DNA of 35,539 bases. Origin: Clostridiales bacterium. Its GTDB lineage: Bacteria > Bacillota > Clostridia > Christensenellales > UMGS416. The position numbers and the translations under genes are program-made. Below, piece after piece: positions 4,959 to 8,307 of the stretch (position 1 is its first letter; each line of letters begins with the position of its first letter). The notes under the pieces were generated by a model. It did not search any database. It had not been told where the DNA came from and worked only from the letters and a program-made list of their open reading frames with translations. The DNA lies in the NCBI GenBank assembly GCA_023139005.1, contig JAGLOK010000008.1, forward strand, positions 1-35,539, in the 5' to 3' direction.

Positions 4959-5825
4959 TTACAAGTTGATCATCACAAGCGCAACAATAATCATGCAAAT
5001 CGCAACCAGTTGCTTTCTGGATGGAATTTCTTTGTAGAAAAGAGCACTTAGAAGCATCGCCAATATTATAGTCGCACCTGAGAACATCGGAAATACAATA
5101 AATGCAGGAAGTGCAAATAACGCTCTTATCAAGAAGGTTGCAGTCAGCATATTGGGGATACCTAAGAACAATCCAATAATGAATTCATTCTTTGTAATAT
5201 TCTTGATGCTTTTCATATCCTTCAAACTCGCCAATAATGCTGATACGAATATGAAGAATAAAAATATCATGCTATGGCTTTGTAGGCAGTACTTTTGAAA
5301 AAGTTTATTAGAAAAGTCGCCCATGCCACCGAACAAGAACAGGACTATCAGCACCGCATGGATCTGATTAAAGCGAAATGACTTGAAGTCAAAGTATGTG
5401 AAAAATATTGCAAATACTGATAAGCATATGCCCACTACCGCAAGTGCTTTTGGGTATTCACGCCATATGATAACAGACAGTATTATCGGAACGAGAATCC
5501 CCATCTTCCCAAATGCAGAAGATAGTGCAGCTCCACTTTGTCGTACCGCTTTCTGGAAAAAATAAAATCCAAGATAGTAAAACACACCACATACGACACC
5601 GATTACAGCAGATAATATGATGCTGTTCATCTCCACATCAGTTAAAGTTACACCAAATATCGCGCCTTGTGATTTACTGATAAAAAAGTTCGCAATGACT
5701 ATCACTACACACATCAAATAGTTCAATGTAATAATGGGTGGTTGTCTGCATTCTTTTTTCTGTGCCAATTTAAACAAATTAGGAATGATGGCACTGAGCA
5801 CGATGGCAATCAATAAATCAATCAT
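4959..5825 (-). CDS. EamA/DMT-superfamily transporter
   Basis: A 288-residue, almost wholly hydrophobic protein with about ten predicted membrane segments arranged as two similar halves, which is the drug/metabolite transporter (EamA) layout. The second half contains GGMGDFSNKLFQKY and ends with the typical FPMFSGATIILAMLLSALFYKEIPSRKQ block. Substrate cannot be predicted: family members export amino acids, metabolites or drugs. RBS AAGGAAG lies just before the ATG. A TATAAT (complement of 5853-5858) in the 60-base gap after tyrS suggests it may also have its own weak promoter. It is followed by the alkaline phosphatase gene. The length is normal and I see no frameshift. Confidence 0.85.
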   Translation of the reverse strand: MIDLLIAIVLSAIIPNLFKLAQKKECRQPPIITLNYLMCVVIVIANFFISKSQGAIFGVTLTDVEMNSIILSAVIGVVCGVFYYLGFYFFQKAVRQSGAALSSAFGKMGILVPIILSVIIWREYPKALAVVGICLSVFAIFFTYFDFKSFRFNQIHAVLIVLFLFGGMGDFSNKLFQKYCLQSHSMIFLFFIFVSALLASLKDMKSIKNITKNEFIIGLFLGIPNMLTATFLIRALFALPAFIVFPMFSGATIILAMLLSALFYKEIPSRKQLVAICMIIVALVMINL

Positions 5826-5885: not shown

Positions 5886-7058
5886 CTATTTCTGCCTGAT
5901 TTCTACAAATCGATTTTTCCCAAACTGCAATACGATCGGTTGTTCAACACACACAACAAGGTTCGCATTTTCTATCACTATCTGGTCGATCTTTATTCCC
6001 TTTCCGAGGATACATCTCCTCGCCTCTCCGTTAGATGATGCAAATCCTGCAAGTTTGATTAGCTCAATAATCGATATGCTCTCTTGCGTGATTTCTACTG
6101 TCTTTAGATTTTGAGGAACACTCCCTTTTGCTACTTCAATGTACCTTTGTTTTGCATTGATTGCAGCATTCTCATCATGATACATAGCAACAATCCGTTC
6201 AGCATATGCAAAGTGCGCTTCTCTGATATCTTCTTCAATCAACCCTTGTGCTTTAACTTCTTTGATATCAGTAGTCAACACAAAGTAATCCTTCAATATC
6301 GTATCCGGTATCTTCATACACTTTTCAAACATGCTATCTGCAGGCTCATCAATGCCGATATAATTATCCAGCGACTTACTCATCTTCTCCACTCCGTCAA
6401 GTCCTGCAATAATGGGATATGTGATAACTACTTGTTGCTTTTGACCATAGTGCACTTGTAGCGTTCTACCTACCAGCATATTAAATGTCTGATCTGTTCC
6501 ACCAATTTCAATGTCTGCATCGAGTGCTATGGAGTCATACCCTTGCATCAACGGATAAAATAACTCATGTAGTGAAATAGGTTGATTGCTCTCAAATCGT
6601 GTTTTAAAGTCATCTCGCTCCATTATACGAGCCAATGTGTATTGAGATGCAAGGTGTATTACATCCTTGAATTTCAGTTCATCAAGCCACTCAGAATTAT
6701 ACCGAATGGATGTCTTACTCGCATCCAGTATCTTTGTAACCTGATGGAAATATGTTTTCCCTGCCTCTCGAGTCTCCTCAAGTGTTAGTGCAGGTCTTGT
6801 TCTCGACTTCCCAGTCGGATCTCCAATCATACCGGTAAAGTCTCCGATGACAAACACCACTTGGTGTCCCAATTCTTGAAAGAGTCTTAGCTTGCGAAGG
6901 ATTACAGAGTGTCCCAAATGTAGATCCGGTCGACTCGGATCTGCACCCAGTTTGATGGTCAATGTTTTTCTCGAGTCCATTAGTAGGTCAAATTCATCTT
7001 CAGAATAAATGCCTACAGCCTCGCACTTGATTGTCTCGATGATACTTTGTTTAGTCAT
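5886..7058 (-). CDS. tyrS: Tyrosyl-tRNA synthetase
   Basis: Charges tRNA-Tyr with tyrosine in the cytoplasm. The 390-residue protein has the class I catalytic core with the HIGH-type motif HLGH at residues 47-50 and a perfect KMSKS at 225-229. The tyrosine/tRNA specificity segment has QGYDSIALDADIEIGGTDQ, and a C-terminal S4 RNA-binding domain runs from about 325 to 390 (ISIIELIKLAGFASSNGEARR...). The sequence style matches the TyrZ-like subgroup (HLGHSVILRKLRLFQ) rather than the E. coli-type enzyme; this is from memory of the families. ATG with RBS AGGAGGG. Upstream there is a promoter, a Tyr-rich leader ORF and a terminator, and no T-box. The EamA gene lies downstream. The gene is complete. 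Confidence 0.96.
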   Translation of the reverse strand: MTKQSIIETIKCEAVGIYSEDEFDLLMDSRKTLTIKLGADPSRPDLHLGHSVILRKLRLFQELGHQVVFVIGDFTGMIGDPTGKSRTRPALTLEETREAGKTYFHQVTKILDASKTSIRYNSEWLDELKFKDVIHLASQYTLARIMERDDFKTRFESNQPISLHELFYPLMQGYDSIALDADIEIGGTDQTFNMLVGRTLQVHYGQKQQVVITYPIIAGLDGVEKMSKSLDNYIGIDEPADSMFEKCMKIPDTILKDYFVLTTDIKEVKAQGLIEEDIREAHFAYAERIVAMYHDENAAINAKQRYIEVAKGSVPQNLKTVEITQESISIIELIKLAGFASSNGEARRCILGKGIKIDQIVIENANLVVCVEQPIVLQFGKNRFVEIRQK

Positions 7059-7086: not shown

Positions 7087-7123
7087 ATAAAAAAGGCTTG
7101 AAGCCATTTAAGAGCCTCAAGCC
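7087..7123 (-). terminator. Leader terminator (attenuator) upstream of tyrS
   Basis: Read on the minus strand, GGCTTGA (7123-7117) pairs with TCAAGCC (7101-7095), followed by six T (7094-7089). It sits between the leader-peptide stop codon and the tyrS ribosome binding site, so it would stop transcription before tyrS unless prevented. A separate 8-bp stem with one mismatch (arms 7148-7141 and 7133-7126) lies directly ahead of it and overlaps the leader stop codon. Confidence 0.78.
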
Positions 7124-7142
7124 ATAGTTGGTTAATTTTAAA

Positions 7143-7229
7143 CTAACTCACAACAGTAAAAGCCCCCATACTATAATAATATGCGTAATAAAGAGATGTG
7201 TTATAAGTTTGTAGTGTGTTATTTTTCAT
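7143..7229 (-). CDS. Tyrosine-rich leader peptide controlling tyrS (28 aa)
   Basis: A 28-codon ORF with ATG at 7229-7227 and TAG at 7145-7143, preceded by AAGGA six bases upstream. Six codons are tyrosine (positions 9, 14, 15, 17, 18, 19), including a run of three TAT. The residues after the Tyr cluster are SMGAFTVVS. It lies between a good extended -10 promoter and an intrinsic terminator, in front of tyrosyl-tRNA synthetase. This is the arrangement of a ribosome-mediated attenuator, as known for pheM-pheST in E. coli: scarcity of Tyr-tRNA would stall the ribosome on the Tyr codons and change downstream folding. Base-by-base reading of the frame was done; expression and mechanism are inferred. 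Confidence 0.8.
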   Translation of the reverse strand: MKNNTLQTYNTSLYYAYYYSMGAFTVVS

Positions 7230-7255
7230 ATTGTATCCTTCAAAATAATATGGCA

Positions 7256-7284
7256 ATTATAGCATCAGTGTTACTTGGCTGCAA
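7256..7284 (-). promoter_or_regulatory. Promoter for the tyrS leader transcript
   Basis: On the minus strand, TTGCAG (7284-7279), a 17-base spacer and TATAAT (7261-7256), with TGC directly before the -10, giving an extended -10 motif. The predicted start near 7249 gives a leader of about 190 bases, ample for the leader peptide and terminator. Confidence 0.7.
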
Positions 7285-7415
7285 CAAAATATAATCATTC
7301 CTATAAGCAAATGACACTTTAACCACAAATTTGTTGCTTTCAGCGGAATATTTGCATCATTCGGACGCTTCATGATGGTTTTTAGCAAAACGTTTGAGTT
7401 TGACCACATTGGTCA

Positions 7416-7444
7416 TTGACCACACTGGTCTGCTATGCTAGTAT
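7416..7444 (+). promoter_or_regulatory. Promoter with operator-embedded -35 box
   Basis: TTGACC (7416-7421), a 17-base spacer and TAGTAT (7439-7444). The -35 is contained in the second GACCA-N3-TGGTC palindrome, so repressor binding would block polymerase. A second, similar unit is TTGACC at 7449-7454 with GATTAT at 7471-7476 (16-base spacer), again overlapping a palindrome. Confidence 0.5.
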
Positions 7445-7496
7445 GAGATTGACCGAGTTGGTCGGTAACTGATTATGTGAGAGAAATATTATTTCA

Positions 7497-7645
7497 AAAC
7501 TCACAAGCCATAACGTGTTTTGAAAAGCAAAAACACCGATTAACCACATTGGTCTGGAATGATTAATGTGATGAAATAATCTTCATGAAACTCACAAGCC
7601 ATAACGTGTTTTGAAAAGCAAAAACACCGATTAACCACATTGGTC
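7497..7645. repeat. 58-bp identical direct repeat, 91-bp period
   Basis: 7497-7554 and 7588-7645 are identical over 58 bases. The preceding 30 or so bases of each unit are similar but diverged. Each copy carries a short GTGTTTT/AAAACAC stem and ends in a TetR-type half-conserved operator (AACCACATTGGTC). Confidence 0.85.
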
Positions 7646-7677
7646 AGCTGTAAAGATGATCCTGAGAGGAAATTATT

Positions 7678-8307
7678 ATGGACTATACCCTAGCAAACAT
7701 AGATAGTGATAAAAAAGACAGAATAATTAACGCAGCAATCGAGGAGTTTTCACTCTATCCTTATGAAAAAGCATCAACTAATAACATTGTTAAGTCTGCC
7801 GGTATATCAAAAGGATTGCTGTTTCATTATTTTAAAAGCAAACAAGATTTATATGATAAGCTTGTCGGATTTGTTATAAACAAAATGTATGATGAAATTA
7901 CAGAGAAAATCGATTGGCATGAATCTGATATATTTGAAAGAATAAAACAGATTGCAATAATTAAAATGAAAATCAGCAAAGTATATCCAAATATGTTTGA
8001 CTTCATGCTCAAAGTTATATCAAGAAATAATGTGAAAAAACTTGAAGATAGTATAAAACTATATGAAAAATACGGAATTGATTTTCAATCAGTAATTGGC
8101 GATGTGTTTACCAAAAATATTGATTACTCAAAGTTTCGTGATCAAAGCACAATAGCCCAATCTATCAATGTAATTCGCTGGACGATCGAAAAATATGGTG
8201 AAGAACAAATACTTGCATTAGATGATATTCAGGATATGGATTTTGAAAAAGCAATAAATGATATGGATGAATATATTAGTATTTTAAAAAAGACCTTTTA
8301 TAAGTAA
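7678..8307 (+). CDS. TetR/AcrR family transcriptional regulator
   Basis: A 209-residue repressor. The N-terminal helix-turn-helix covers about residues 12-58, with the family pattern IINAAIEEF...ASTNNIVKSAGISKGLLFHYFKSK followed by DLYDKLV. The remaining ~150 residues form the usual variable all-helical ligand-binding domain, whose ligand cannot be predicted. RBS GAGAGGAAA before ATG 7678. The gene is noticeably more AT-rich than the transporter genes that follow. Five palindromic operators just upstream point to autoregulation. The ABC transporter operon starts 77 bases downstream on the same strand, so the regulator probably controls drug or toxic-compound efflux in response to its ligand. 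Confidence 0.92.
   Translation: MDYTLANIDSDKKDRIINAAIEEFSLYPYEKASTNNIVKSAGISKGLLFHYFKSKQDLYDKLVGFVINKMYDEITEKIDWHESDIFERIKQIAIIKMKISKVYPNMFDFMLKVISRNNVKKLEDSIKLYEKYGIDFQSVIGDVFTKNIDYSKFRDQSTIAQSINVIRWTIEKYGEEQILALDDIQDMDFEKAINDMDEYISILKKTFYK

Follow-up and report, generated by a model that had tools for sequence, protein, structure and literature searches.

A candidate ribosome-mediated attenuator with tyrosine codons upstream of a backup tyrosyl-tRNA synthetase gene in Clostridia

The Bacillota serve as the textbook example of synthetase-gene control by the tRNA itself, through T-boxes. In E. coli, pheM-pheST is composed of a leader peptide with a high content of the cognate amino acid, a terminator and the synthetase gene, and its antiterminator is formed by codon-proximal RNA and the 5′ arm of the terminator. 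The E. coli PheRS is the only PheRS of the cell. Attenuators were predicted for trpS and leuS in Streptomyces, and that of pheST was cited for Gammaproteobacteria; according to the same study, no synthetase gene of Firmicutes is known to be under classical attenuation (Seliverstov et al. 2005, PMC1262725). The uORFC-8-2 motif lies upstream of cysS in Rhodobacterales, and a leader with Phe codons precedes aroF in Acholeplasma (PMC8632094). T-box control of tyrS has been described in Enterococcus durans (PMC3315439). Searches of the open-access literature turned up no attenuator with tyrosine codons.

The locus considered here lies upstream of a tyrS gene in the window (the whole stretch of DNA that was analysed, 35,539 nt, from a Clostridiales bacterium). 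It shares the leader peptide, the terminator, the position before a synthetase gene and the composition of the antiterminator with pheM-pheST, the system to which the original prediction had likened the arrangement, but the amino acid is Tyr instead of Phe, the E. coli system belongs to Gammaproteobacteria, and the TyrRS is best seen as a backup enzyme. The predicted Streptomyces systems would likewise place synthetase genes of Gram-positive bacteria under classical attenuation, but in Actinobacteria and with Trp and Leu; uORFC-8-2 likewise has a leader ORF, in which cognate codons stand in tandem, and a terminator before a synthetase gene, but is an alphaproteobacterial element with Cys. The T-box leaders of tyrZ and tyrS in Bacillota, which are used by close tyrZ relatives, would have in common with this locus the type of gene, the Tyr-tRNA charging signal and antitermination of transcription. 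They differ in that uncharged tRNA is bound directly, with no leader translation, and none was detectable in the window. From the sequence and from folding models, we consider it very likely that a classical ribosome-mediated attenuator senses charged tRNA-Tyr at this locus and controls the backup TyrRS.

The extended −10 promoter, AAGGA Shine-Dalgarno (SD) sequence, 28-codon ORF with six Tyr codons, stop codon and intrinsic terminator that the original prediction placed before tyrS were all found as described (Table 1). The −10 hexamer is perfect and is extended by the TG, and the −35 hexamer is poor (3/6), which explains why the promoter is missing from the consensus-scan listing. Transcription is predicted to start at approximately 7249. 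The leader ORF, which has its own SD sequence, lies between promoter and gene, and its Tyr codons are codons 9, 14, 15, 17, 18 and 19 (three of them consecutive); the first (7205-7203) is ahead of the sensor run, and the stop codon is at 7145-7143. Between the ORF and the gene, the terminator hairpin (7123-7095) has a free energy of −17.7 kcal/mol, a stability reached by none of 200 shuffles, and its U-run consists of six U.

Table 1. Coordinates of the tyrS leader, its alternative folds and the downstream gene in the window.
Feature	Position	Strand	Description	Basis
Promoter	7256..7284	(-)	−35-like TTGCAG 7284-7279, TG 7264-7263, −10 TATAAT 7261-7256	Sequence reading
SD sequence of leader ORF	7238..7242	(-)	AAGGA	Sequence reading
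Leader peptide ORF	7143..7229	(-)	MKNNTLQTYNTSLYYAYYYSMGAFTVVS, ATG to TAG, 28 codons	Sequence reading
Sensor codons	7173..7190	(-)	TAT TAC GCA TAT TAT TAT (Tyr14, Tyr15, Ala16, Tyr17-19)	
Region 2, antiterminator 5′ strand	7159..7168	(-)	UGGGGGCUUU; inside leader ORF, right after Tyr run	Folding
Antiterminator inner hairpins	7122..7156	(-)	7156-7153 with 7125-7122; 7147-7141 with 7137-7131; overlap leader stop codon	
Antiterminator 3′ strand	7109..7118	(-)	GAGGCUCUUA; overlaps terminator 5′ arm at 7118-7114	Folding
Intrinsic terminator	7089..7123	(-)	5′ arm 7123-7114 (region 3), 3′ arm 7104-7095 (region 4), U-run 7094-7089	
Second tyrosyl-tRNA synthetase (tyrZ-like)	5886..7058	(-)	390 aa, SD AGGAGGG	NCBIfam TIGR00234, 331 bits

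The same genome (G000) encodes another TyrS (G000:C283), which is 27% identical to the TyrRS of the window. Both types of TyrRS were present in all six genomes with leaders that were searched whole (G000, G002, G421, G428, G534 and G417; in G428 the second type is split in two fragments), and likewise in G476, the genome of locus L004. The presence of a housekeeping TyrS in every leader genome searched whole is the reason for which we regard the window TyrRS as a backup synthetase of the tyrZ kind, not as the housekeeping enzyme. The window type is rare in the order (4 of 396 genomes) and scattered across the class (36 of 391 genomes). A gene for an EamA-family transporter (4959-5825) begins 60 nt after tyrS with no visible terminator between them, and the two may be co-transcribed.

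The upstream regions of related TyrRS genes were extracted, oriented and compared. The layout of the window was found in six relatives (57–63% protein identity, from at least five families), in which an SD-led ORF with 3–5 consecutive Tyr codons is followed by a terminator; the Tyr-rich ORF of the original prediction is thus conserved together with its terminator. The leader peptides are MIYFISTTAYYYYYSKSHTFELLVMQ in L001, which belongs to a genome of the same family as the window, ..VSYYYGNRPWLLLL in L003, ..VIYYYLPVYPNRPGLLRPFSRG in L123, ..VSYYYGDRLGLLLQK in L128, ..NMYYYNYYYLNRLGLLLS in L130 and ..YVYAYSYYYGSGLG.. in L131. In all seven loci, the 5′ arm of the terminator pairs with the RNA just past the Tyr run. 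Most of the other related TyrRS genes had either a T-box or no recognised leader upstream. A DNA pattern for the leader core had only two exact matches in the 391 genomes of the class, both of them tyrZ leaders (G428 and G417); one further match, inside a gene, was taken as chance.

These peptides bear on the possibility that the ribosome is stalled by the leader peptide itself or by a ribosome-bound antibiotic, as in erm or hflXr leaders, the Tyr codons being incidental. The peptides of L003, L128 and L130 end in a sequence like YYYGNRLGLLL, which could be an arrest motif, and such leader-peptide attenuators are known in Bacillota (PMC6310831). However, this end is not common to the window (SMGAFTVVS), L001 (SKSHTFELLVMQ) and L131 (GSGLGSPL), the peptide varies outside the Tyr run, which is conserved together with the RNA pairing, and the controlled gene makes Tyr-tRNA. 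We therefore regard an arrest peptide or a drug-induced stall as improbable, and sensing of Tyr-tRNA as the preferred reading.

The antiterminator of the window starts 4 nt past the Tyr run and occupies half of the 5′ arm of the terminator, so that the two folds are mutually exclusive. Its free energy (7169-7108) is −16.6 kcal/mol, and 7 of 200 shuffles were as good; it relies on many G-U pairs, and in the window alone the pairing is weakly above chance when compared with shuffles (P = 0.05 for energy, P = 0.16 for the fraction of the arm held). The original prediction had instead paired GGGGGCTT with the 3′ arm of the terminator. This candidate was rejected, since folding favours the pairing of 7168-7159 with the 5′ arm (7118-7109), as in the other six loci. 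The small hairpin that had been noticed near the leader stop codon does exist and overlaps the stop codon, but it is the tip of the larger antiterminator.

Because a MAFFT alignment of the leaders misaligns the terminator arms, pair statistics were calculated per locus, by pairing the RNA after the Tyr run against the 5′ arm of the terminator. The best duplex started 4 nt after the Tyr run in the window, 17 nt in L001, 5 nt in L003, 13 nt in L123 and 7 nt in each of L128, L130 and L131. Dinucleotide shuffles of the RNA between the Tyr run and the terminator served as control. Summed over the seven loci, the held fraction of the 5′ arm was 5.69, and none of 1000 shuffled sets was as high (mean 2.01, maximum 4.34). 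The Fisher combination over the seven loci (P = 2e-7) is optimistic, because the loci are homologous and the rows not fully independent. When the pairing partners were swapped between loci, 388 of 5040 arrangements gave sums as good, which is mildly significant and indicates a modest co-change of sequence.

The effect of the ribosome was evaluated with a folding model, by asking what fraction of the 5′ arm region 2 holds while region 4 has yet to be transcribed. Across the seven loci, this predicted fraction was 0.72–0.98 when the A site lay at the first Tyr codon of the run and 0.72–0.91 when it lay at the last, versus 0–0.08 when the ribosome was at the stop codon (72% and 8%, respectively, in the window). 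In the model, the antiterminator can form when the ribosome is at the sensor codons but not when it has reached the stop codon. The trpL and pheM leaders of E. coli MG1655, run with the same script, yielded 0.71–0.75 at the sensor codons versus 0–0.14 at the stop codon, so that pheM, folded by the same procedure, gives the same pattern as the window and agrees with the likeness to pheM-pheST originally proposed. Without a ribosome, region 2 was protected in L001, L128, L131 and the E. coli controls. In the window, L003, L123 and L130, which have no strong protector hairpin, it was not, and the antiterminator would be expected to form even then; pheM, unlike the window, has such a hairpin when untranslated. 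A protector hairpin, which causes termination when the leader is untranslated, is an accessory and not a defining trait of attenuators. The predicted effect of a loss of leader translation differs accordingly between the two sets of loci. Full-length folds favoured the terminator in nearly all cases, E. coli trpL and pheM included (window, −22.3 kcal/mol for the terminator versus −16.6 kcal/mol for the antiterminator); since the terminator wins at equilibrium, the switch must act during transcription, by kinetic folding.

A further explanation is the chance coincidence of a constitutive promoter, a leaky terminator and an AT-rich stretch that is not translated and whose Tyr codons are fortuitous. 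The region is indeed AT-rich, and the antiterminator of the window taken alone is weak, as given above. Nevertheless, when the 300 nt upstream of tyrS were shuffled by dinucleotides, an SD-led ATG ORF with YYY arose in only 3 of 4000 cases, the layout is repeated in six relatives, and the pairing over seven loci exceeded every one of the 1000 shuffles. Of 88 further regions upstream of related TyrRS genes, only one had an SD-led YYY ORF, which resembles the end of a longer gene. A chance origin of the Tyr-run ORF at this locus is unlikely, and we give very little credence to the explanation as a whole, again favouring attenuation through Tyr codons.

T-boxes were searched for with RF00230 (stem I with its specifier loop and the T-box antiterminator). 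In this group the gathering cut-off misses true T-boxes at 66–81 bits, and E-value mode was therefore used. No leader locus matched at E 0.01, and four tyrZ relatives matched in the same scan at 66–81 bits, which agrees with the initial reading that no T-box is visible before tyrS. That a missed T-box binding uncharged tRNA controls tyrS, as is usual in Bacillota, is hardly credible: nine T-box matches do lie elsewhere in the genome, and T-boxes occur in many tyrZ relatives, but the scan found none in the window or the other leader loci, and the promoter-to-gene span is only approximately 190 nt and is occupied by the ORF and the terminator. T-box control of the window tyrS is excluded as far as sequence allows. 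No other Rfam family was found at the window leader either; the trpB ncRNA motif RF04312 scored 23.4 bits (E = 0.94) against a gathering threshold of 59. One TyrRS of the same protein group (L116, genome G343) is under a T-box and is the sole TyrRS found in a 1.2-Mb genome.

The regulation that we infer for the cell would run as follows. Transcription would start near 7249, and the Tyr-rich leader would be translated while it is being made. With ample Tyr-tRNA, the ribosome would reach the stop codon and cover, or have disrupted, region 2 (7168-7159), the terminator would form, and most transcripts would end near 7089. With scarce Tyr-tRNA, either under tyrosine starvation or because the housekeeping TyrS fails or is inhibited, the ribosome would stall at Tyr17-19 and leave region 2 free. 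Region 2 would then pair with 7118-7109 before region 4 is made, which would give the antiterminator its kinetic preference, block the terminator and allow tyrS to be transcribed. Under this model, sensing of Tyr-tRNA by ribosome stalling explains every part of the leader. The ribosome-mediated attenuation originally predicted is supported by the layout kept in six relatives, the antiterminators formed in seven loci, the lack of a T-box match and the pattern shared with pheM and trpL.

The protein tree had 70 rows. The TyrRSs of the seven loci with attenuator-type leaders and that of L004 all fell within a group of 13 rows (support 95), of whose other members four have no recognised leader and one has a T-box; in the neighbouring group of 49 rows, 31 were T-box rows. 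A strict clade of these eight TyrRSs was rejected (p-AU 1e-4), and the tree therefore requires loss or transfer. Directly upstream of tyrZ in L127 lies a group II intron match (2687-2767), on a contig that ends approximately 1.3 kb upstream; L130, a congener of L127, has a Tyr leader, and loss of the leader in L127 is plausible. In L004 (2887-2961; the same locus as L125), a Tyr-rich ORF, MYMYRNYAPIDCYIIDSYINADRG, has no terminator and ends inside the SD sequence of the TyrRS gene, an arrangement suggestive of Tyr-leader control at the level of translation.

We think it somewhat probable that, in one lineage of Clostridia, a translation-dependent attenuator took the place of the T-box of a backup TyrRS, as the first classical attenuator of a synthetase gene in Bacillota and, within the literature searched, the first for tyrosine, with the window, L003, L123 and L130 dispensing with the protector hairpin. 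If so, a lack of leader translation in these four loci would leave the gene on, not off. An E. coli-style switch would thus operate in a group where synthetase genes normally use the T-box, with both devices on close relatives of one gene and T-boxes kept elsewhere in the window genome: a natural experiment in how one sensor of tRNA charging replaces another. The sensor would be tied to a backup enzyme, whose induction is to be expected on failure or inhibition of the main TyrRS.

Two further observations concern the surroundings of these genes. At 24 tyrZ loci (e.g., L014, L024, L035 and L064), from many Clostridia, a small conserved ORF (MTQxFxMKxIIxGFFYExSY..) with a strong SD sequence lies approximately 100 to 20 nt before tyrZ, mostly past the T-box terminator. 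Differences at its codon positions 1, 2 and 3 numbered 333, 308 and 511, a pattern that suggests translation; the ORF may encode a small protein or act as a second leader that contains Tyr. In the window, five TGACCA-N3-TGGTCA palindromes (7400-7646) precede a divergent tetR gene (7678-8307, + strand) and an ABC exporter operon. The window has 7 matches to this palindrome versus 1.6 expected (none of 100 shuffles had as many), and some copies are carried by two 91-nt direct repeats (7447-7628). The array is likely a set of TetR operators.
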